Positions 8,605 to 22,340 of a stretch of DNA of 64,000 bases are shown in pieces. The DNA is taken from the NCBI GenBank assembly GCA_947503715.1, contig CANNER010000002.1:62001-126000 (forward strand), written 5' to 3'. Both the position numbers and the translations under genes were made by a program. Position 1 is the stretch's first letter, and each line of letters begins with the position of its first letter. This stretch comes from an uncultured Caulobacterales bacterium. Its GTDB lineage: Bacteria > Pseudomonadota > Alphaproteobacteria > Caulobacterales > Maricaulaceae. A model generated the notes under the pieces. It worked only from the letters and a program-made list of their open reading frames with translations, was not told the DNA's origin and searched no databases.

Positions 8605-8711
8605 TACCTGCGAAAAAATGCTGTGGAACCCAGCCGTGAATGAGGGGTTTTATCATCACACGACTTATTTATAAGAACGCAAATTCACTAAAGACTATAC
8701 GGGCCAAATTC

Positions 8712-9323
8712 ATGATCTATCGACTTCTGACGACAACTCTGATCGCTTGCGCATTAACGGCTTGCGGAGACAAGGCTGCTGCGCCCGAAAAAGCTCCGAC
8801 CCCGCCAACACAGATTGAAACGACGACACCAGAAACGCCTAAACCTGAGATAAAAGCCGCTCTGAAACCCGGCCAATTTATCACGGGTCGACGCGGTGTC
8901 CGCGCGGCAAAATCCGATGATATTATAATTACGGATGACGCGGTGACCCTGCGCCTCAACCCAAAGGGTCCGTCCCTCGGACTTTCCAAAACCTTCCCGA
9001 CATCTACTGCAAAAGATTACGTTGTGACCGTTGATCTGGAAACGGAAAATGTGATTGGCGATCTCGGCTTCCGCATGGTCGCTTGGGCGCTGGACGCCAA
9101 TGGCGCCCCCGTCAGCCGTACAGGTTACACGGCTATCGGACGGAGCTTTGATGCTGCCGCAGGTCGCCAAACACTGACCTATCGCTTCGGTCCAGCGACT
9201 GGCGAAACAGAGGCCGCCGAGCGTTTACCTGCAGGGGAGTCCATACGCTTCCTGCTGGAACCCGTCACAAAATCAACAGGTGCAACCGCACGCGTTTACG
9301 CCATGACGGTCGCGCAGGACTAA
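8712..9323 (+). CDS. Hypothetical lipoprotein
   Basis: A 203-aa predicted lipoprotein: MIYRLLTTTLIACALTAC forms a signal with lipobox L-T-A-C, followed by a Pro/Thr/Glu-rich linker of about 40 residues and a beta-rich C-terminal domain (about residues 60-203). The frame is open for 24 codons upstream (to 8640), but that stretch has no signal character, so the ATG directly before the signal is preferred. I do not recognise the domain; the beta-sandwich-like pattern could suggest ligand or carbohydrate binding, but no motif supports this. Its stop overlaps the stop of the convergent gene at 9320 by 4 bp. Confidence 0.6.
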   Translation: MIYRLLTTTLIACALTACGDKAAAPEKAPTPPTQIETTTPETPKPEIKAALKPGQFITGRRGVRAAKSDDIIITDDAVTLRLNPKGPSLGLSKTFPTSTAKDYVVTVDLETENVIGDLGFRMVAWALDANGAPVSRTGYTAIGRSFDAAAGRQTLTYRFGPATGETEAAERLPAGESIRFLLEPVTKSTGATARVYAMTVAQD

Positions 9324-10366
9324 TCCTGTTTTTTCTTGAGGTAGTCGGACGCACTCGTCCGACCGCCCGTTCCCGCGCGGTCCACGGGGTCGCGCTTTAA
9401 CCGTTCCAACGGACTGATTGTTTCGGCATGGGCGGCGGCTTGTGCCGCTGTTTCAGCATTGGACTGTGCGTCTGCGACAGCTTGTGCCTGTGCGGCAGCA
9501 GCCGCGTCAGCTTGGGCTTGTGCCGAGGCATCAGAGGCAGATTGCGCATCCGCATCAGCGGTCCCATCAGTTTGCGCCTGACCGGAATCTTGACCCTGTT
9601 GCGCGTCGGATTGACCGCTGGGTTGCGAACCTTGCGCCTGTCCTTCTGCCTGCCCTGCCGATTGTCCCGCTGTCTGGCCGCTAGGGTTTTGGCCCGAGGG
9701 CCCGCCGCGGCCTTTGATCTGGTTCAGAATATCCGACGCCGATGCCGCAGACCCACCGCGCAGGGGCGAGTTTTGCGACATAGGTGATTGACCGGAAGAC
9801 CCGCCACCGGATTGTCCCGCTTGTCCTTTAGTTTGCCCTTCGCCGCCGCCCTGTCCTGCCTCAGCAGGCTCCTGACTCGCGGTGCCTTCACCTTCTCCGG
9901 ACTTACCATCTCCGGTTCCGTCACCCATTCCGCCAAGGCCGCTATTGGCCTCCTCGACCATTTCTTTCCAGGCCCGCGCTTCCTGCTTGGCGATATATTC
10001 GTCCGTTTTCGCCTCTTCCGAGGGTTCATAGGCCGCATCAATAGGCTCACCGGGTTCGGCTCCGGCCAGAGCTTTTGCGCGCTGACGGTTCAGGTGACGA
10101 CGGGATTCAGGGTTGAGCAGGTCAATGGCCTTGACCTCGCCCCCCGGAAAGGAACCGACGCCCTGACTATTGGGATTGGTGACGATATCTTTGAAAATAT
10201 CACCACTATCGCGCTTCTTGCGGGACTTCCGCCAATCTTCCTCGGACTGATCGGTTTGTCGCGTGTCAGGATTGTCCTGAACCGGATTCGGGTCTGAGTC
10301 CTGCGCATAGGCAGGTGCGGCCAGAACGGCGAAGAGGAGCGAAACTGTCAATCCACGTATGATCAT
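9320..10366 (-). CDS. Secreted low-complexity Gln/Ala/Gly/Ser-rich protein
   Basis: A 348-aa protein with a classical signal peptide (MIIRGLTVSLLFAVLAAPAYAQ). The first third is charged and helical (DWRKSRKKRDSGDIFKDIV, RRHLNRQRAKALAGAEPGEP). Residues from about 140 onward are low complexity: Gly/Glu-rich, then SGQ/AGQ repeats, then Ala/Gln-rich stretches with D-A-Q-S spacing, ending in LKRDPVDRAGTGGRTSASDYLKKK. The frame extends 67 codons further upstream into non-signal sequence, so the ATG at 10366 is chosen. It is the last gene of the minus-strand cluster that starts at 17932, 46 bp behind the FGE-fold gene. Disordered spacer or wall-associated roles are possible; none is shown. Confidence 0.6.
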   Translation of the reverse strand: MIIRGLTVSLLFAVLAAPAYAQDSDPNPVQDNPDTRQTDQSEEDWRKSRKKRDSGDIFKDIVTNPNSQGVGSFPGGEVKAIDLLNPESRRHLNRQRAKALAGAEPGEPIDAAYEPSEEAKTDEYIAKQEARAWKEMVEEANSGLGGMGDGTGDGKSGEGEGTASQEPAEAGQGGGEGQTKGQAGQSGGGSSGQSPMSQNSPLRGGSAASASDILNQIKGRGGPSGQNPSGQTAGQSAGQAEGQAQGSQPSGQSDAQQGQDSGQAQTDGTADADAQSASDASAQAQADAAAAAQAQAVADAQSNAETAAQAAAHAETISPLERLKRDPVDRAGTGGRTSASDYLKKKQD

Positions 10367-10412
10367 GGCAGAGCCATAACATATTTTGCCTGAGCACGGG
10401 ATGAATAGGTCG

Positions 10413-11957
10413 TTAGTTTCTAACCACCCTAAATCCCGTGAAGTCATTCGTGTCCCCGCGACGCTGAACCGCGCGCGCCGCATAGCGCAGACCTTCCGCG
10501 CCTGAGAACCACGATCCACCGCGCACAATCCGTTGGGAACAGGACCCGCGCGCATCAGCAGAACCATCTACAGGCGCGTCTTTCAAGTTCAGCGTGTTAC
10601 AATCCAGCACCCATTCTGACACATTGCCGATCATATCCTGCGTCCCGAATTTATTTTTGGACAGCGACCCCACGGGCAAGGTGCGGTCCGCGGCCATATC
10701 GGTACAGGCCTCATTCGCCCAGGGCAGACCGGATTCTTTCGACGCACCATTGGCAAACGCACAGAGCGCTGCGGGGGAACCGCCCGGATAGATATTGGTG
10801 TCGCCGGCACGCGCCGCATATTCCCACTGGGCTCCGGAGGGCAGGCTGTAGGACTTGCCGGTCGTGTTGGACAGCCATTGCGCATAGGCAACGGCGTCAG
10901 ACCAACTGACATTGATGACGGGACGATTTCCGCCGCCCCAACCATTATCAGACGGCATGGATTTACACCCGCCCGCACTGACGCAGGCCTGATATTGATT
11001 GAAGGTCACCTCGGTAACGCCAATCGCGAACATATTGGTAAAGGTCACGGGACGCGAAGGTTTCTCATTCGGTTTGCCGTCCGTGTCGCCCGCCCCTGCG
11101 CCGAGTTCCGCCGTGCCGGCGGGCAGGCTGACCATGGTCGGGCAAGCGTCGCAATCTTTAAAGGTTTTCCCTGCCGCGGGACGCAGATTTTCCAGCGCCG
11201 CAATGGCCTCGGGCACATGTGCACCCTGCGGGAAACTCGTCAGATATTGTTGGTAGGCATCCGCCGCATTTGAGGCTTTTGCCACGGCCCATGCCGCTTC
11301 ATCCGCCGCTGTGGCTTTCAACCGGTCAATGCGGGACTGTGCCTCTGCCGCGTTTTTCCCAGCGGGAAATTTGGAGAGATAGCCTTCGTAAGACGGGACC
11401 GTATTCGCCTCGGCCGCCGCTTTCCAAGCCGCTGCTTCTTGTCGCGCGGCTTCTTCCGCATTTTTGCGGCGGGCCTCTTCCTCCGCCTTTATCTGCGCAA
11501 TCCGTTCACGCGCTTCATTGGCGTGGAGGCCGTCGGGCCACGCCTCCAAATAATCCTCATAACCTTCAATCGTATCGCGTTCTTCAGCCACAGCCCAAGC
11601 TTTGCCGTCAAATTCATTGATGAGACGGATGGCGTCTTCCTTGTGCCGCCCATTCGGGAAAGCGGTCAGATAGGCGCGGTATCCCTCCAACGTATCCGTT
11701 TCCAGCGCCTGCACCCACGCCTCGTCATCGGCGGATTTCGGGGCTTGGGGTTTTTCCTCAATCGGTTTCTCAACCCGCTCAATTACGGGAACATCCTCCG
11801 CAATGACAACTTTTGATGCCAGCCAAATCCCGCCCCCCGCGACGAGAAGTAGCGCGATAATACCGACGGCATATTTCAGCCAAGGCGCAGATTCTTCACG
11901 GACCGCAAATTCGTTGCGCTCATGTGGGGGCTGCCAATTGTCGTTATGATTAGTCAT
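10413..11957 (-). CDS. Membrane-anchored FGE-sulfatase (SUMF1) domain protein with SPOR/TPR-like helical repeats
   Basis: A 514-aa protein: short cytosolic N-terminus, one transmembrane helix (about 27-48), Glu/Pro-rich linker, then four degenerate helical repeats of about 30 residues with the core AW...A...T...GY..YL..FP.G.H..EA (about 79-250). The C-terminal half (about 265-514) is an FGE-sulfatase/PvdO/EgtB-type domain: VTFTNMFAIGVTEVTFNQYQAC, RPVINVSWSDAVAYAQWLS, YSLPSGAQWEYAARAG, NKFGTQDMIGNVSEWVLDC, RIVRGGSWFSG and FTGFRVVRN. Many such domains are structural (for example GldJ and GldK of gliding/type IX secretion) rather than enzymatic. Its start overlaps the upstream gene by 8 bp. Its place in the cluster suggests a periplasmic structural or sensory part. 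Confidence 0.85.
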   Translation of the reverse strand: MTNHNDNWQPPHERNEFAVREESAPWLKYAVGIIALLLVAGGGIWLASKVVIAEDVPVIERVEKPIEEKPQAPKSADDEAWVQALETDTLEGYRAYLTAFPNGRHKEDAIRLINEFDGKAWAVAEERDTIEGYEDYLEAWPDGLHANEARERIAQIKAEEEARRKNAEEAARQEAAAWKAAAEANTVPSYEGYLSKFPAGKNAAEAQSRIDRLKATAADEAAWAVAKASNAADAYQQYLTSFPQGAHVPEAIAALENLRPAAGKTFKDCDACPTMVSLPAGTAELGAGAGDTDGKPNEKPSRPVTFTNMFAIGVTEVTFNQYQACVSAGGCKSMPSDNGWGGGNRPVINVSWSDAVAYAQWLSNTTGKSYSLPSGAQWEYAARAGDTNIYPGGSPAALCAFANGASKESGLPWANEACTDMAADRTLPVGSLSKNKFGTQDMIGNVSEWVLDCNTLNLKDAPVDGSADARGSCSQRIVRGGSWFSGAEGLRYAARAVQRRGDTNDFTGFRVVRN

Positions 11958-12456
11958 TTAGATTACTCGTTAATGCCTGATGGCGATACCCGTTCAGCAA
12001 ATTCACAAGCTCTTCAATCGAATAAGAAAAACTGAATGGGATGAAATTATCGATATTGTTTTCGTCAGAACTCATATTTGAAACGTGCTTGTAAGAAATT
12101 TTTTCAATCTTGAAGACGCCTTTTTCTACAATCTGAAAGCTGGAAACTTCGGACCATTTTTCTTCGAAACTTGGAAACGCAGATTTAATCTCAAAACCTT
12201 TTTGATGAAGATAAAGTTTTGGTGGTCGCAAAAACATATAAAGAATATACGCAATTGCGGGAACAAACCCAACGATGAACGAAAGGCCTTTCGGATGTTC
12301 TAAAATTTCATTCAAAGAGAATTTGAAAAACATATAAACCGCTATTGAGATTAAGAAGATTAAGTAGAATCCCCAAAATTTTCTACTTCCAATTAATTCA
12401 ATATCTTCAACCTTATCCTCCACCAGATAAGCCTTTACCTTTAGCATCCGGCCCAT
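11950..12456 (-). CDS. AT-rich small membrane protein of unknown function
   Basis: A 168-aa protein with two adjacent transmembrane helices (about 28-46 and 57-75), followed by a soluble domain of about 90 residues with a W-x-E-V-x-x-F-x-I pattern that hints at a PH-like fold; this is a guess. Base composition is clearly more AT-rich than the flanking genes, and codon use differs (many AAA, ATT and TTT codons). The start overlaps the end of the MotA/TolQ-like gene by 44 bp (35 bp if the ATG at 12447 is used), and its stop overlaps the FGE gene. It therefore sits in frame-coupled register inside the cluster despite foreign-looking composition. Confidence 0.6.
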   Translation of the reverse strand: MGRMLKVKAYLVEDKVEDIELIGSRKFWGFYLIFLISIAVYMFFKFSLNEILEHPKGLSFIVGFVPAIAYILYMFLRPPKLYLHQKGFEIKSAFPSFEEKWSEVSSFQIVEKGVFKIEKISYKHVSNMSSDENNIDNFIPFSFSYSIEELVNLLNGYRHQALTSNLND

Positions 12457-13210
12457 CGCCTAACCGCAAAATCAAATTGTCCAAACAATATTGCCCCGCC
12501 TCGTTCAATGCGCGTTCTTCCTTATTCTGGACGAGGCTTTGGATGAGCACGAGGACGGCCGACATGATGAGCGCCAACAAGGTCGTGGTGAAGGCCACAC
12601 CCAATCGCGAGGTGACTTGATAGAGGAAATCATCCGCTTCCGCATTGGCAGGGACGCCCGCATATTGCAGGGCGAACATGATCCCCATAACTGTGCCGAT
12701 AAAACCGAGGGACGGGATGAGCCATGTCAGGTAACGCAGCATTGAATAGCGCAAGTCGATTTCATGCATGTAAAGCTCGAGCGAGGAGTTCAGGACGGAG
12801 ATCGCCTGATCCTCATTCCCGCTCATCCGGTATTGGTCGATGGTGCGGGAAATCATGCGCGGGAGGAACGCGTTGAGGCCGAAGCGACGTTCGGTAATGC
12901 CTGCCTTGATGCGTCCCAACACATCGGGGTCGAGTTGCCGCCCGTCGGTCGGGAGATAGCCGCGCTTGAGTTGGTTCTCCTCGTCACTCGCCGCGGACCA
13001 GCGCAAGAATAATTCGCCAAATCCGATAAAAAGCGCGACCCACATAATGTTCTGCACAGTGAAGGGCCAGAAGCTGGCATCCGCATCGAGCAGAATTTCC
13101 TGCAACGCCGGAGATGCCGCGACGCGGATAATGCCGATGGTGACAATCGCACCGACGATGGCGACGAGGAAGACGAAAAGTCTTTTCATTAAAGCATTCG
13201 GATTTTTCAT
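12413..13210 (-). CDS. MotA/TolQ/ExbB family proton-channel subunit
   Basis: A 265-aa inner-membrane protein with four predicted helices: about 10-30, 48-70, 161-181 and 204-227. The last two carry the family signatures: LTWLIPSLGFIGTVMGIMFAL and LGVAFTTTLLALIMSAVLV, where small residues and Thr line the proton path in MotA, TolQ and ExbB. A helical cytosolic domain of about 90 residues lies between helices 2 and 3, shorter than MotA's and close to TolQ/ExbB. It follows the two VWA proteins with only a 20-bp gap, and these have the Asp-bearing helix expected of a MotB/TolR/ExbD partner. I infer a proton-motive-force driven complex. Confidence 0.85.
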   Translation of the reverse strand: MKNPNALMKRLFVFLVAIVGAIVTIGIIRVAASPALQEILLDADASFWPFTVQNIMWVALFIGFGELFLRWSAASDEENQLKRGYLPTDGRQLDPDVLGRIKAGITERRFGLNAFLPRMISRTIDQYRMSGNEDQAISVLNSSLELYMHEIDLRYSMLRYLTWLIPSLGFIGTVMGIMFALQYAGVPANAEADDFLYQVTSRLGVAFTTTLLALIMSAVLVLIQSLVQNKEERALNEAGQYCLDNLILRLGDGPDAKGKGLSGGG

Positions 13211-13230
13211 AATCTTTCCTCAGATCCAAC

Positions 13231-14214
13231 CTAATCACACACACCGGCACTGGTCGAGGCCAGGGCCATGAATTGACCATTATTTCTGTCCGCGAGCCGT
13301 TCCATAAATTCGACCGTCCCGCGATAGTCGAAATAATTTCCAACCACGACGGAATGGATTTCTTTACGCCCATTATTTCTGCGCGCAATTTCATCCGCGA
13401 GACGATTGGGCGAGAGACCGTTATTCGCATTTGGATTGGGCAGACCGTCACTGACGAGGAAGATCGCCTGCCCCGGCCCCGCCAGCATGTCGTCAAATGC
13501 GTCGAGCATGGAGGCCGAGCCGCCAAATTGGCGCGTCAGGCCGCGTGCAAAATCAATGGCGCCCGTTTTCGTGCCGCCCGTATTTATCTGGCGCAGACGG
13601 CCAGTCGCCGGCCATTGCCGGACTTGCGGACCGCGATCCGTTTGTTGGAAACCCACGACTTTGACGGCGTGATTATCCTGCAGGGAGAGAATAATCCGTT
13701 CGACGGCTTTATTCACGCTCGCCTCATGCCCGCCCATACAACGGCTCATATCTATCGCGACGACAACGTCATCTGCTGTTGTTTTCATGCCGAGAAAGCG
13801 AAAGCTGACCGTCGCGGGTTCAGGTGTTGGGCCGGGATCCTCGGCGACGGGTTCGGGGACGGGTGTGGCGGGCGGCGGCGTGGCGGCAGCTTGCTTTTCC
13901 AAGAGGTCCGATTGCGCGGCGCGGAGCCGTTCTAGAAGCTGCTGCGCGTCGGATTTTATATCGGACACATTTTGCCGTTTGGCCGAGCGCTTAATCTCCA
14001 GCGCCTTGCGCTTCTCTTCCGTCTCGACAGAGCTGTCCTGCGCTGCGCGGAGGAGTTCTGAAATTGCATTATCCGGCGTCTTTTCGCGCAGCTCATTCTG
14101 ATAATAGGGTAGCAGAATAATCGCGAGCAGCGCAAAGGCCCCCATCGCGGCGGCGAAAAGGTCGATCGCCGACATGGAGAAAACTTCGATCGTGCGTTCG
14201 GATCTTCTTTTCAT
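13231..14214 (-). CDS. MotB/TolR-like membrane protein with degenerate VWA domain
   Basis: A 327-aa protein: basic N-terminus, one transmembrane helix (about 15-37, SAIDLFAAAMGAFALLAIIL) with an Asp at residue 18 at its start, a coiled-coil region (about 40-112), a Pro-rich linker (112-134) and a C-terminal VWA domain (about 145-325). The helix resembles MotB's A-D-F-M-T-A-M-M-A-F-F-L stretch, whose Asp binds protons. The metal site is degenerate: DMSRCM (155-160) has Cys in place of the last Ser, and the usual Thr is replaced within GGSASMLDAF, while the third motif, VSDGLPNP, is kept. It overlaps its paralogue upstream by 4 bp (ATGA). Role inferred: stator-like partner of the MotA/TolQ-like subunit. 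Confidence 0.8.
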   Translation of the reverse strand: MKRRSERTIEVFSMSAIDLFAAAMGAFALLAIILLPYYQNELREKTPDNAISELLRAAQDSSVETEEKRKALEIKRSAKRQNVSDIKSDAQQLLERLRAAQSDLLEKQAAATPPPATPVPEPVAEDPGPTPEPATVSFRFLGMKTTADDVVVAIDMSRCMGGHEASVNKAVERIILSLQDNHAVKVVGFQQTDRGPQVRQWPATGRLRQINTGGTKTGAIDFARGLTRQFGGSASMLDAFDDMLAGPGQAIFLVSDGLPNPNANNGLSPNRLADEIARRNNGRKEIHSVVVGNYFDYRGTVEFMERLADRNNGQFMALASTSAGVCD

Positions 14215-15164
14215 CGGGACCGTCCCACAAATTCACCGCGATTGCGATTGGCGAGTTCCTGCAGGAATATCGTCAGCGCTTTATCCGAGGTGTAATCGCC
14301 AATTGCGACGGTGTGGATTTCCACCCGTCCGCGATTTCGCGATGTGACATTCTGGACAATCCGTCCGGGCTGTCCGTCATCGGGTTGCCCGTCACTAATC
14401 AGAATGACCGCTTCTGGTTTCAGGTTCAGTGTTCGGATCAACGCATTTTGCGTCGGCGTCCCCCCGCCAAAATTAGACGGCATATTATCGACAAAGCGCC
14501 GCGCGCGGTCCAGCGTTACCGCGTCGGCGCGGACCAGTCTTTCATTATTCGGAAAACTGTCAAAGGTCGGCCCACCGCGATAGCCGATAATGGCGAAGCG
14601 ATTATCCGGCTTCATCTGCGACAGGATTTCATTCAACGCCTGCACGACATTTTGACGATGGGCCTGCATGGACCCGGACATATCAACGAGGATGACGACA
14701 TCGCGCTTATCCGTCGAGAGGCCCAGAATTGAGAACGGCACACCGCGGTTAATTGAACGCGGCGGTTCCGGCGGGTCAGGTTCCACGATGGGTTCGGGGT
14801 CCGGAACGGGTTCGGGCTGCGGCTGCGGGTCGGGGATTTCGACCTCTGCCATTTGCTTGAGGACCTCTTGTAATTTGGCCTCCGTTTCGCTCATCTGAGT
14901 CTCAGTCGTCAGATATTGTTTATCCAGCAGACGGATTTCAGACTGAATGGCGCGAATGGCGGAAAGGTCAGTTTGCTCGCTTTCGGCGGCGAAGCGGCGT
15001 TTGCGGACCTGCTCTTCCAGCTCCTCCATCGACACATCCGTGCCGCCCAATTTGTAATAGGGAAAGAGTACGAGCACGATCAGAATAAACGCCCCTAAAG
15101 CCGCCGCGAAGAGGTCGAGCGCCGATATAGAGAAAACAGCAATGGAGCGCCGCTTGGACCGCAC
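14211..15164 (-). CDS. MotB/TolR-like membrane protein with intact VWA domain
   Basis: A 317-aa paralogue of the gene downstream: basic N-terminus, transmembrane helix SALDLFAAALGAFILIVLVL (about 14-36, Asp17), coiled coil (about 45-110), Pro/Glu/Asp-rich linker (110-137) and VWA domain (about 150-315). The metal-ion-dependent adhesion site is complete: DMSGSM (161-166), Thr in GGGTPTQNAL, and Asp in LISDGQPDDG. VWA domains of this kind bind a divalent metal and a protein ligand. Topology places the domain in the periplasm, where OmpA-like domains of MotB bind peptidoglycan. It lies 3 bp behind the secreted protein gene. Confidence 0.83.
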   Translation of the reverse strand: MRSKRRSIAVFSISALDLFAAALGAFILIVLVLFPYYKLGGTDVSMEELEEQVRKRRFAAESEQTDLSAIRAIQSEIRLLDKQYLTTETQMSETEAKLQEVLKQMAEVEIPDPQPQPEPVPDPEPIVEPDPPEPPRSINRGVPFSILGLSTDKRDVVILVDMSGSMQAHRQNVVQALNEILSQMKPDNRFAIIGYRGGPTFDSFPNNERLVRADAVTLDRARRFVDNMPSNFGGGTPTQNALIRTLNLKPEAVILISDGQPDDGQPGRIVQNVTSRNRGRVEIHTVAIGDYTSDKALTIFLQELANRNRGEFVGRSR

Positions 15165-15167
15165 GAC

Positions 15168-15968
15168 TTATCCGCCACCGCCAAAGATTCGAATAAGGCG
15201 GTAGAGACGTTCCTGTTTGGCCTTTTCCAGCGCGGCCTCACTCATATCATTGGAAAGCCGCACGGAATCGCGCAGCACACCGCGATCCATCTCGCTATTG
15301 ATCACATCATTGGACCGCTTCAGCCGCCCGTCGAGATCGTCCATGAACAGCGTTTCAAGCTCCGCAATTTCCGTTTCGAAAGACTGGAACTCGACGGCAT
15401 CGCGTTGCGCAATCAGGGAGGAGGAATAGCCCGCGACGAGACCCGCCCATTGCGGGTCTTCATCCGCGCCAAGATCTGTCAAACTCTCGCTGAGGATCTG
15501 GCGCAGGAAGAGCGCATCTTCCGCAATCGCCGCATTGAAATCGGGATTGGTCAGCGTCGCATCAAAGGCGAGCAGGCTGTCCATCTGTCCTGTGATATAA
15601 ATATCGCAAGCTTGCGCAAAATCGATCATATAATCCATGCTAGCCACGATGATTTCAGGTGCGGCCTGACGCAGGACGGGATTGGCGATATCTTCGATAA
15701 CCGCCAAAACGGGCGTGCCGGATTCGACAGCGGGTTGACCGTAATGGTTCAGCAAAATCTGCGTGCCCTCATCCGCGCCGAAGGCTGTGTCTTGGACAAG
15801 TTTGAAAAACTGGTAGCGGGCCACGGCATCATCCGTTGGAAATTCCGCCATTTGCGTGATGCACATATCCTGATTAACCGCCGGAAGGGCGACGGGGGCA
15901 ATGTCTTGCGCCGCTGCCAAAACAGGCAGGCTCAATGCGCCCAAACTTATAAGGGTTGCGCGAAACAT
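15168..15968 (-). CDS. Secreted protein of unknown function
   Basis: A 266-aa protein with a signal peptide (MFRATLISLGALSLPVLAAAQ) and a mature part predicted to be almost wholly helical, with an extended charged helix near the C-terminus (about 205-255) ending in IRIFGGGG. Two Cys (in MCITQM and QACDIY) could form a disulfide. No family recognised. Its ATG overlaps the stop of the upstream lipoprotein (TGATG) and its own stop lies 3 bp before the first VWA gene, so it belongs to the same transcription unit and probably to the same envelope assembly. Confidence 0.65.
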   Translation of the reverse strand: MFRATLISLGALSLPVLAAAQDIAPVALPAVNQDMCITQMAEFPTDDAVARYQFFKLVQDTAFGADEGTQILLNHYGQPAVESGTPVLAVIEDIANPVLRQAAPEIIVASMDYMIDFAQACDIYITGQMDSLLAFDATLTNPDFNAAIAEDALFLRQILSESLTDLGADEDPQWAGLVAGYSSSLIAQRDAVEFQSFETEIAELETLFMDDLDGRLKRSNDVINSEMDRGVLRDSVRLSNDMSEAALEKAKQERLYRLIRIFGGGG

Positions 15969-17932
15969 CAGTTGATCGCGCCGCCTGTCGCGCCGTCAAA
16001 GGCCGAGGCAATTGGCTGATCGGATGGGCCGCGGTCCACGCCGCTTTCAAAACTGCGGACCTTATCCGCACGACCGGATTGGGAGACCCGCACTGTCCCG
16101 TCAGGTTGCCCGTCGGTAAAGCTGCCCTCGTAAGAAATTGACCCGATGGAGGAATGGCGGATCATCAGGCCCGGCCCATTCGCCAAACCGTTACGGGCAT
16201 AGCCGTAATATTCCATCACCGTATCTGCATCTTCCAACACACCTGCACCGGTCCCATTGGCCAATCCGTTTTCACAGACGCCTAGCCATGTTCCACGTTT
16301 GACCCGGTCCGTTCCGAGATAAGCACATTGCGTCGCCACCGTTTCCAGCGAGCGTTGCTTCGACGTGTAGAGCGACTGCAATTTCGCCTGCAAATCCTCA
16401 TAACGGATGGCTGTGATGGTCTCGTTTGAATCGAGCAGGTCAATCGTCACGGTCGTTTGTTGTTCCAAGACGGGAACGATAGAATTTAGATAATTATTCC
16501 CGACCTGCTGCGACAATTGTGCTTTAGAGTAAGCTTCCGTTCCCGCAAAAATACCGCCCTGTATCGCAGCGGAGGACGCTGCACTGCGCGCGCGGTTGCG
16601 GCGCACACAGGCATCATATTCGCGCTGGGTGGTTTTATTGCGACAGTTTTCGCCACCGCTCGCAATCGCAGCTCCACCCAAGACACCGGCAATAGCCATC
16701 ATGGTCGCGGCATTCTGTTGCCGCGCAATTTTACGACGCTTTTCCAGAACATCATATTCAGCAGAAATCATATCACGGACTTGCGCGCCCAATTCGCCGT
16801 TATGGATGCCATCGAAAATACGCAAGGATTGAACAGAGAGAAACTTACGTTGGGCCTCCAACAGACGGTCCGCATAAGCAGCGCGGGCTGCATAATCAGC
16901 CTCGTCACTGCCGACGAAAGTCAGCGCCGCGAGGCTGGGGTCAAACTCCGCGACATTGGCCGCCTTGCCCATCATAACAGCCTTGTCTGAGTCCAAACCG
17001 TTGATGAGCGCAATAATACGGCGAGCCATGGCGTCGGTATAAACATCGTCCAATGGATCAACGGTTCCGTCCGACGCGCCGTCCAAAAGATACATGTCCG
17101 AGCTCTGCAATTTAATTTTTTCGACTGGCAGCGACATAACAGAGTTAGTCTCTGACCGCACATCCAATCCCTGCGTCTCGACCCGCATGGGCGTGTCATT
17201 TGTGAGATAGGAAATGAAATCTAGTTCGGGGATGACCGGATCGAGATTTCCCGCCTGTAAGGCATTAATCGTTTCCAGCGCCGTTTCCTGCCCTTCCGCC
17301 GCAGCCCGCGACACGAGCGGCGCGGAGGCCATTAGTAATCCGTGTGTCGGTGCGGCGGCCCGGTGGTCGGTGCGAACGGTCACCAAGGGTGTGACCAGGT
17401 CTCCAAACGTCAGCGGAACATTCCCCATCATCTTCTTGCTGTCCGGGAAACTATAGGTCGAAAAGTCGATAGAAGTAACAGCGGGTAATTCCTCGGCCTC
17501 CGTCATAGGCTCCGACGTAAGCTCCCCACCGGGACCCAGCGTAATAGCATGAGGCGAGAGTAGCACAGAATGTTCCGGTAAACGGGCGGCTAACTCCTTA
17601 TAAAGAGACAACGCGAAATAATTGGATTTCACGACGGCGCTATCCGCAATTGCGACCGTTTCAATCGTGTTGGTGACGCCCCGTCCCGTCGCCCCACCAA
17701 TCGCGCGGCGGGCATAGGCGCGGTGGTAATCATCGCGGGCATCCTCTGTGACAATCGCCGGATAGCGGATGACGGTCAGAACGCTGCCCTCTGGGACTTC
17801 CCCGCGGAGTGTCTCGACGGGGGCGGATTGTGTGACGACAGACGCTTTGACGCCTTGCGCCGTCGAGGCACAACCTGTCGCGAGAAGCCCTAAGCTCAGT
17901 AAGGAGGAGGCTAAAAGAATGCGTTTCATCAT
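15968..17932 (-). CDS. Large lipoprotein with C-terminal MORN-like motifs
   Basis: A 654-aa protein with a lipoprotein signal (MMKRILLASSLLSLGLLATGC). The first roughly 380 residues form an unrecognised alpha/beta region. A Gly/Ala-rich hydrophobic stretch follows (AATMMAIAGVLGGAAIASGG, about 420-440), then a helical segment. The C-terminus has three MORN-like motifs (GTWLGVCENGLANGTGAGVL, YYGYARNGLANGPGLMI, YEGSFTDGQPDGTVRV). MORN repeats commonly mediate protein or lipid binding. It is the first gene of the cluster, reading leftward to 9320; upstream is a 91-bp gap to bolA, where the promoter should lie. Confidence 0.7.
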   Translation of the reverse strand: MMKRILLASSLLSLGLLATGCASTAQGVKASVVTQSAPVETLRGEVPEGSVLTVIRYPAIVTEDARDDYHRAYARRAIGGATGRGVTNTIETVAIADSAVVKSNYFALSLYKELAARLPEHSVLLSPHAITLGPGGELTSEPMTEAEELPAVTSIDFSTYSFPDSKKMMGNVPLTFGDLVTPLVTVRTDHRAAAPTHGLLMASAPLVSRAAAEGQETALETINALQAGNLDPVIPELDFISYLTNDTPMRVETQGLDVRSETNSVMSLPVEKIKLQSSDMYLLDGASDGTVDPLDDVYTDAMARRIIALINGLDSDKAVMMGKAANVAEFDPSLAALTFVGSDEADYAARAAYADRLLEAQRKFLSVQSLRIFDGIHNGELGAQVRDMISAEYDVLEKRRKIARQQNAATMMAIAGVLGGAAIASGGENCRNKTTQREYDACVRRNRARSAASSAAIQGGIFAGTEAYSKAQLSQQVGNNYLNSIVPVLEQQTTVTIDLLDSNETITAIRYEDLQAKLQSLYTSKQRSLETVATQCAYLGTDRVKRGTWLGVCENGLANGTGAGVLEDADTVMEYYGYARNGLANGPGLMIRHSSIGSISYEGSFTDGQPDGTVRVSQSGRADKVRSFESGVDRGPSDQPIASAFDGATGGAIN

Positions 17933-20489: not shown

Positions 20490-20978
20490 ATGGCGAAACA
20501 TCAATGTCTGAGTTGCGGTGAACGTTTTGAGGGGCCGGAGTTTTTCAGCTACCTTCTAAAACTGCGGAGCAAGACCGTTCTGTGCCTTCGCTGCCAAACA
20601 GATAATTATATCGTCCCGCAACGCAACGTGGCCTATTTCATTTTTCTGCTCATCTCAATTCTGATTGGACTGATCATATTCGCCATTCCAAATCTCGGAT
20701 TTGCAGCTGCGACCTATAGTCCTTCGACGGAAACTTACCGGGTTAGTTTTCTGGCTCTCATCGGGGGCGCTGCCCTCGGTCTGGCTGCGGCAAGGCTCGT
20801 CATGAATGTTTTAACTGGATGTTTGGAAAAGTCTCACAGGATCGTAAGTATAAATCCGCGAGTGATTATGAGGGCTGACCACCCAAACCTGTCGGCGACC
20901 CTACTTTACCAATGTTGTATTCGGATAGGCCGCCTGCCAGCCGAACCAGAAGGCGCGGTGATAGGGGAGTCTTTTTAA
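20490..20978 (+). CDS. Zinc-ribbon membrane protein of unknown function
   Basis: A 162-aa protein with an N-terminal four-Cys ribbon (CLSCGERFEG...CLRCQTDN) and two transmembrane helices (about 49-75 and 88-110). The short C-terminal tail reads into the end of the convergent DUF3179 gene (78-bp overlap), so the last 25 residues may be fortuitous read-through. Similar Cys-ribbon plus two-helix small proteins exist in several phyla without known function. The ATG has GGGGG about nine bases upstream. It lies between cobS and cobT. Confidence 0.55.
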   Translation: MAKHQCLSCGERFEGPEFFSYLLKLRSKTVLCLRCQTDNYIVPQRNVAYFIFLLISILIGLIIFAIPNLGFAAATYSPSTETYRVSFLALIGGAALGLAAARLVMNVLTGCLEKSHRIVSINPRVIMRADHPNLSATLLYQCCIRIGRLPAEPEGAVIGESF

Positions 20979-22340
20979 TTCGCGGCCATCCTCTGCGGTG
21001 AGGCGGGCTTCCGAAATTTTCCATGTGCCGCCATTTTTATCCGCGGCGACCCGTCCGTCAGACGTCACAATCTCGACCGTGCCCGGGTCATAGACGCGGT
21101 TCGCCCCGGTCTCATCCGTCAATATGACGAAACGCTGCGTGCCGAGTGTTCCGGCATAGACGGGGTTATTATTTAAATAATCCGTATCGATTGCAATGCT
21201 GCCGGGTTGTCCCTTGAATCGCAGGGCAAGTACTTCCTGTTTATTGGCAAGACGCGAATCCTGAAACGGCGTATTAAACATAAGGTCATCCGTCGCGAAA
21301 TAATCATGATAGGCGACCCCTTCGTCATAGTTGCGACGATGCCCCGTTTTCAGCGATAGAACCTGCGTTTGTGGATGGAGCGATTTCCATTTCCCCCAGG
21401 TCGTGGTGACAACACTGCGATGGTTCAGTGCGATATCTTTTCCCGTCAACGGGCCGACCACTGGTTCACCCTTAATTGTATTCCACAGACTCTGAGTCGC
21501 TTGATCATACATTAATTTGTTCGAGCGCAGTAAAAAGCCGGACGTACCCAGATCATAATCTGTTCCGTTCAGCGTCGTATCATAGAGAATGACTGTCCCG
21601 CAAAGTGTGCAATAAACGCCCGCAACATCGACGCCGCCAACCGTGTCCGTAAACATCTCATGCCACGCCAATATACGTTTGGGGTAGGCACGAAAATCGC
21701 CATTGACCTCTATCCCGAAGACGACATCTTCATCATCCAGATAATCTGCATCTAAAGCTTTTAACATTTTAGGATTGCGCAGAGGCGGGATGCCGTCCTG
21801 TCTTACGCCGCCCCACCGGACTTCATCCAAGCGGATTGTAGATGTTTCGCCGCGATCTCTGAAATATTTACCGAAACGCGGATCAATGCGTTCATAAAAC
21901 TCAGCTTTGAACGCATCATATCCCGGCGAATTGAGCGCGGGTTCATTCCACATCCAGCGGAACCAATCATTCATATTCGTGCCGAAATCCTGTCCGGTTT
22001 CATGGCGCAATTCATTCAGGAGGTGTTTCCGGATTGTAGGGTCATAAACGAAGTTGAAGACTTCCAAGGTCGGTGCAACCCACGTCGCATCAAAGCGGGC
22101 AGATATCTGATTCCGGATTTCAGGGTCTCCAAACGCGGCGGAACGGTCTAAAAGTGCGAGTAATAATGCGCGGTCCAGAGCGTCAAAAGATGCGGCATTC
22201 GACACGGGATTGACAGGGGCTGCCGCACTGGCCGTCGCCGCAGATATGGCAGTATTGGTTTGCGCATTCGCATTCACAAAGACTATGGAAAGCAGAGCGC
22301 CGGCTGCGAGAGCCGTGGTCAGGAGGATAGAGTTTTTCAT
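20901..22340 (-). CDS. DUF3179 domain protein, secreted
   Basis: A 479-aa protein with a signal peptide (MKNSILLTTALAAGALLSIVFVNANA). The DUF3179 core spans roughly 165-380: FGIEVNGDFRAYPKRILAWHEMFTD, the C-x-x-C motif in VAGVYCTLCGTVILYD, FLLRSNKLMYDQATQSLWN, and a late HDYFATDDLMF. DUF3179 proteins are periplasmic or extracellular, of unknown activity; the CxxC suggests a metal or thiol role. It is divergent from cobT with a 184-bp intergenic space carrying an inverted repeat, and its 3' end overlaps the convergent zinc-ribbon gene. Confidence 0.85.
   Translation of the reverse strand: MKNSILLTTALAAGALLSIVFVNANAQTNTAISAATASAAAPVNPVSNAASFDALDRALLLALLDRSAAFGDPEIRNQISARFDATWVAPTLEVFNFVYDPTIRKHLLNELRHETGQDFGTNMNDWFRWMWNEPALNSPGYDAFKAEFYERIDPRFGKYFRDRGETSTIRLDEVRWGGVRQDGIPPLRNPKMLKALDADYLDDEDVVFGIEVNGDFRAYPKRILAWHEMFTDTVGGVDVAGVYCTLCGTVILYDTTLNGTDYDLGTSGFLLRSNKLMYDQATQSLWNTIKGEPVVGPLTGKDIALNHRSVVTTTWGKWKSLHPQTQVLSLKTGHRRNYDEGVAYHDYFATDDLMFNTPFQDSRLANKQEVLALRFKGQPGSIAIDTDYLNNNPVYAGTLGTQRFVILTDETGANRVYDPGTVEIVTSDGRVAADKNGGTWKISEARLTAEDGRELKRLPYHRAFWFGWQAAYPNTTLVK

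Follow-up and report, generated by a model that had tools for sequence, protein, structure and literature searches.

A putative proton-driven envelope motor with paired VWA proteins and an FGE-fold partner in a Maricaulaceae genome

We found that a cluster of eight minus-strand genes in a 64,000-nucleotide stretch of DNA from an uncultured Caulobacterales bacterium of the Maricaulaceae (contig CANNER010000002.1, positions 62,001 to 126,000; hereafter the window) probably encodes a trans-envelope motor or force transducer driven by the proton motive force (PMF), with subunits in a 5:2 ratio, a load at the outer membrane and an ancestral gating by phosphorylation. The eight open reading frames (ORFs) lie at positions 9320-17932 of the window, where the original prediction had placed them, and are lettered A to H from the high-numbered end. 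They form the tight run that had been described, with A and B overlapping by 1 nt, a gap of 3 nt between B and C, an overlap of 4 nt between C and D, a gap of 20 nt between D and E, overlaps of 44 nt between E and F and of 8 nt between F and G, and a gap of 46 nt between G and H. The original prediction had also proposed a proton-driven machine spanning the periplasm and equipped with VWA-bearing stator-like proteins, which is supported by the invariant channel residues and by the conservation of the neighbourhood.

The channel subunit E (12413-13210, 265 aa) matches the MotA_ExbB family of Pfam (1.4e-11; 44.7 bits against a cut-off of 22.9), and its hydropathy suggests that it probably has four transmembrane (TM) helices, three of them clear and one, at about residues 47-68, moderate. 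Thr173 (12692-12694, GFIGTV motif, TM3) and Thr210 (12581-12583, VAFTTT motif, TM4) are Thr in 86 of 86 aligned sequences and align with the Thr residues that MotA and TolQ conserve in TM3 and TM4, with Thr173 lying at GT(V). Its two partners, C (14211-15164) and D (13231-14214), each consist of an N-terminal TM helix followed by a VWA domain; C matches VWA_3 at 1.6e-17, and D does so at 7e-5, under the curated cut-off, yet can be aligned with C along its length. Upon aligning 56 C/D pairs from core-family loci, we observed that the membrane Asp of C (Asp17, 15114-15116) is kept in all 53 sequences covering the column and that of D (Asp18, 14161-14163) in 56/56; both are proposed proton-binding residues. 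As in PMF-driven 5:2 motors, a MotA_ExbB subunit with Thr in its last two helices is thus combined with partners whose N-terminal helices bear an Asp. In the same alignment, the metal-ion-dependent adhesion site (MIDAS) of C (D161, S163, S165, T236, D258; DMSGS motif at 14670-14684) is intact in 55-56 of 56 sequences, whereas the equivalent positions of D read D, N/S, C/Y/F, A/S and D in 56/56 and are degenerate. Because C retains the site and D has lost it throughout the divergence of alpha- and gammaproteobacterial loci, the pair points to an obligate asymmetric heterodimer. The VWA domains of both proteins are predicted to be periplasmic, as positive residues precede the TM helix.

Proton-powered motors of the 5:2 type drive flagella, the import of nutrients and the upkeep of the outer membrane. 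Judging from the family, five copies of E would ring the TM helices of one C and one D, and protons passing Asp17, Asp18 and the Thr ring of E would turn or tilt this axle relative to E, the motion being carried by the periplasmic VWA heads. Since only C would be able to bind a ligand through its metal-ion site, the gripping would fall to the head of C, and D would serve as a structural or counter-head. On the outer-membrane side, the likely load would consist of lipoprotein A, with its MORN domain and long helical hairpin, together with its partner B and the secreted H, while G, devoid of the enzymatic cysteines, could sense a ligand or act as a docking module. Ancestrally, G may have been both sensor and switch: its cytoplasmic end would have been an active Ser/Thr kinase, with PP2C as its opponent and FHA proteins as its readers, so that motor activity would have been phosphorylation-gated. 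In the lineage of the window the motor would be constitutive or would take another input, possibly F.

Next, we investigated the distribution of the cluster. Full-length homologues of C, D and E were found in 13 of the 18 sampled genomes of the window genus, the window's own included, and in a fourteenth genome of the same family and another genus, where the flanks differ; the order A-B-C-D-E-G-H is constant in these loci, except for one interrupted by a contig end. A scan for relatives of E, taking one genome per species, gave 291 relatives, of which 80 were kept. Among the Robiginitomaculaceae and Hyphomonadaceae loci with full flanks, A, B, the C/D pair, E and G occur together in 23/23 and H in 22/23, which is more than chance. 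The survey thus found the co-occurrence on which the original prediction depended. In Gammaproteobacteria resembling Lysobacterales the order is CHAT< C D [FHA<] FHA E trypsin-like-FHA kinase-FGE H, with B< A< after H in 8/12 loci; the retention of the same proteins in two classes despite this rearrangement speaks for a functional unit. A class-wide sample contained an E homologue at E <= 1e-15 in 17 of 385 genomes, so the system is sparse yet widespread. When comparing two cluster-less genomes (G003 and G015), we found BolA, DnaJ and CobS present, the flanks rearranged and no remnant of the cluster between or beside these genes, and because of the rearrangement neither a clean insertion nor a clean excision is demonstrable. 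As a separate observation, the left flanks of five loci (L108, L109, L113, L114 and L118), read by eye, hold separate ExbB-like, TonB-like and TPR genes beside the VWA-motor cluster, so that several Lysobacterales loci appear to hold two adjoining proton-driven systems.

The G of the relatives joins a Ser/Thr kinase at its N-terminus and an FGE domain at its C-terminus in one polypeptide (Pfam), and the kinase catalytic residues are kept in 34-35 of 37 aligned sequences. Alongside it are encoded PP2C, FHA proteins and a trypsin-like-TM-FHA protein, together with a CHAT protein in Gammaproteobacteria; in Kiloniellales and related loci the kinase is combined with other periplasmic parts, such as a beta-helix in L134. 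The small FHA proteins (L111:2705-3340 and FHA8 homologues) have, ahead of the FHA domain, a conserved segment that contains Thr, which to us is reminiscent of GarA-type phospho-switches. In a tree of E, the window falls into a 37-member clade (support 100/100) within which kinase, PP2C and FHA occur only in L102 and L105; outside this clade most loci have the kinase, some of the apparent absences being contig ends and several deep branches being long and poorly placed. The simplest reading of this distribution is that phospho-control was ancestral and was lost in the lineage of the window. The window's genome gave no FHA match and no PP2C_2 match, and its one clear Ser/Thr kinase is located elsewhere; we rejected this kinase as a relocated partner, since no FHA, PP2C or other partner lies around the main match and a second region was without matches. 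Thr92 of E is present in 27 of 28 gammaproteobacterial loci and in some of the remaining kinase loci and is lost in the kinase-less clade; it was discarded as a candidate phosphosite because the kinase-bearing L102 and L105 also do not have it, so that the correlation is not clean.

The FGE-fold protein G of the window (10413-11957; Pfam FGE-sulfatase, 7.7e-49) is anchored in the inner membrane and, in view of its kinase-FGE counterparts, is probably the remnant of a kinase-FGE protein. At the expected catalytic cysteines it reads RGGSWFSG, and core-family homologues read RGGSWF[ST]G or similar, with no Cys pair; G is therefore not a sulfatase-activating enzyme, and its reading as a formylglycine-generating enzyme was rejected. 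In a more distant subfamily (L058, L163-L172), TolQ and VWA proteins are likewise accompanied by an anchored FGE protein, which makes FGE a deep partner of VWA motors. The operon of that subfamily comprises a lipoprotein, an inner-membrane protein, the FGE protein, a TolQ-like protein and two VWA proteins, and one family in the phylum sample commonly carries operons of this type.

Between E and G lies F (11950-12456), a 168-aa protein with two TM helices that resembles bacterial PH-domain proteins and has weak DUF6585 and STM3941 matches. Its GC content of 0.349 (0.379 at third codon positions), against a window mean of 54%, falls below that of all sampled 507-bp stretches of the window, and F is recognisable in only three cluster-bearing genomes of the genus and family set, the window included. 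F is recently acquired and not core. The original prediction had joined all eight genes into one unit; a conserved unit of seven, A-B-C-D-E-G-H, holds up, and F is an accessory newcomer. GC-poor and overlapping both neighbours, F occupies the position of the relatives' kinase domain, as a recent insertion. In L084, L091, L100 and L103 an F-like PH-like domain with two TM helices is fused to G at its N-terminus. Across loci, the former kinase position is empty or is taken by this fused PH-like domain, by a multi-TM segment or, in the window, by F as a gene of its own, which gives the N-terminus of G the look of a hotspot for domain swaps. The multi-TM segment, fused to G in L028, L029 and L090 in place of kinase or F, is unrelated to either.

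The envelope partners A, B and H have no Pfam match. The 654-aa protein A (15968-17932) carries the lipobox ATGC, with Cys21 invariant across 27 homologues, and is by its sequence a predicted outer-membrane-type lipoprotein. Its AlphaFold model (mean predicted local distance difference test, pLDDT, 80) comprises an N-terminal alpha/beta domain, two very long helices forming a hairpin and a C-terminal MORN domain of about 115 residues. The MORN assignment made beforehand is borne out by the fold search, in which residues 530-646 match junctophilin/MORN4 (Z about 10.9; root-mean-square deviation, rmsd, 2.8-3.0 over about 105 residues). In the model the hairpin could be long enough to extend far through the periplasm, and its tip (residues about 408-426) is hydrophobic, a property conserved in nearly all full-length homologues. 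Matches of the helical part to AhlB and BAR proteins had a large rmsd and were not accepted as homology. Protein B (15168-15968, 266 aa), secreted according to its signal peptide and adjoining A in alpha- and gammaproteobacterial loci, is entirely helical in its model (pLDDT 87), for which the fold search against the PDB gave generic helical matches (best Z 5.0) and none that was informative. For H (9320-10366) the most likely start is 10366, which yields the signal peptide MIIRGLTVSLLFAVLAAPAYA, rather than the longest-ORF start at 10567. It had been described as a low-complexity secreted protein; it is predicted to be secreted and its tail is of low complexity, but about 120 N-terminal residues are conserved out to Gammaproteobacteria, and H follows the FGE gene in both alpha- and gammaproteobacterial loci.

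When comparing the cluster with described systems, the nearest is a TolQ subunit with heterologous paired VWA axles, reported in silico with AlphaFold 3 models of 5:2 assemblies and with function unknown (PMC12204202; Mol Biol Evol 2025). By description, in the parts of that article consulted, a TolQ-like subunit, a heterologous VWA pair with a membrane Asp in the transpore helix and the lack of a separate tolR/exbD are shared with our cluster, which on that account is a variant of the published motor. In the same parts, FGE/sulfatase, kinase, PP2C, FHA-domain and CHAT proteins and the A, B and H partners are unmentioned and the MIDAS asymmetry is not noted. What our analysis adds is the MIDAS asymmetry, a set of partners (FGE protein, lipoprotein, B and H) and the module for phospho-control together with its loss. 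Other surveys of 5:2 motors do not mention VWA (PMC9389320, PMC12505986), and in the open-access literature we found no description of kinase, PP2C, FHA and FGE in association with this motor, which is not proof of novelty. The threonine phosphorylation pathway of the type VI secretion system (T6SS), with PpkA, PppA, Fha and TagR, shares with the relatives a TM kinase, PP2C, FHA and an FGE-type periplasmic protein. TagR is an FGE-type protein. The relatives differ from that pathway in that a proton-channel motor would be controlled; the combination of kinase, PP2C, FHA and FGE-type protein occurs in the relatives and not in the window. No Tss genes were seen beside the motor, although no systematic search for them was made. 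By analogy, the kinase-FGE, PP2C and FHA of the relatives make this pathway a closer parallel than GldJ/GldK, which the original prediction had invoked; that parallel stands at the level of the FGE fold and fails beyond it, as the GldK model reaches 85.9 bits and its cut-off lies at 350.

A secretion or surface-motility motor akin to the type IX secretion system (T9SS) or gliding machinery, in which E, C and D would move H or another surface protein through or along the outer membrane and the FGE protein and lipoprotein would form a ring, is an unlikely alternative. The FGE fold beside a proton-driven motor does resemble PorK/GldK, H is secreted with a low-complexity tail, and one A subunit with two B subunits, that is, one MotA-like and two MotB/TolR-like proteins, resembles AglRQS of Myxococcus gliding (PMC9389320). 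AglQ and AglS, however, carry TolR-like peptidoglycan-binding domains where C and D carry VWA, and their partners differ. Moreover, no GldL or GldM matches were found among the cluster proteins, GldN is likewise missing, and there is no outer-membrane translocon or adhesin in the cluster; with the GldK score far under its cut-off, identity with T9SS/GldK was rejected. Gliding is not known from this group of organisms, which also counts against it.

We consider it rather improbable that the proteins form a mechanosensor or signal input instead of a work-producing motor, with the channel reporting the state of the envelope or surface through VWA and FGE to the kinase. The direct fusion of the kinase to a periplasmic FGE module, the presence of FHA and PP2C and the exchangeable sensor domains (FGE, beta-helix) would fit, but the lineage of the window lost the signalling output and retained all channel, VWA and envelope parts, which suggests a role of their own for those parts. 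An anti-phage or cell-cell conflict system, in which a Zorya-like channel and sensor would trigger a toxic response, with kinase and CHAT effectors in the relatives, appears quite improbable. ZorA models match E weakly (best 5e-5), E and the single-TM C and D recall ZorAB, the distribution is patchy, and kinase, VWA, PP2C, FHA and FGE domains are found in described conflict systems (PMC7159879). Against this, E has 265 aa and no long cytoplasmic tail, C and D have VWA rather than a peptidoglycan-binding domain, the cluster contains no nuclease or helicase and none of the ZorC/ZorD or ZorE effector genes, most partners bear signal peptides, and the kinase matches to defence models are generic to kinases; the flanks are housekeeping genes common to related species and not a defence island. 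The earlier argument against Zorya, based on the missing helicase and nuclease, therefore holds and is extended by the missing tail and peptidoglycan-binding domain, and identity with Zorya was rejected.

Several points weigh against the force-transducing motor that we favour. The C-D-E interface and stoichiometry are taken from the family and not from a predicted complex, E matches solved stators weakly (E about 0.05), and A, B and H are tied to the motor through gene linkage only. In 5 of the 18 genus genomes, two of them 99% complete, no cluster was found, and it is thus not essential to the genus; the complete loss of the phosphorylation module also needs explaining if phosphorylation was central. 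We entertain only tentatively the wider reading of a distinct nanomachine class, in which a proton motor with an asymmetric VWA heterodimer as its axle, under reversible Ser/Thr phospho-gating (kinase-FGE, PP2C, FHA), would act on an outer-membrane MORN lipoprotein, and of which one lineage would have shed its phospho-control, with different cytoplasmic or membrane domains taking the place of the kinase.

The operon gives a VWA-axle motor a complete list of parts, together with a control module of kinase, phosphatase and phospho-readers, and the module-less lineage is a natural experiment separating motor from control. The pairing of an intact with a degenerate MIDAS suggests that the axle is a heterodimer in which one head grips, and whether paired B subunits heterodimerise is a question shared with AglRQS. 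Cultured hosts usable for testing are Litorimonas cladophorae, Algimonas arctica and Aliiglaciecola lipolytica.

Finally, a promoter and terminator scan performed no better than on shuffled sequences. The cluster is flanked by housekeeping genes for aconitase, BolA, DnaJ and CobS. Near it, at 20901-22340 of the window, is the gene of a secreted DUF3179 protein (1.5e-72), which overlaps an unannotated membrane-protein ORF (20490-20978) at the 3' end of the latter, and at 8640-9323 a 227-aa secreted protein of unassigned family is encoded convergently with H, overlapping its end by 4 nt.

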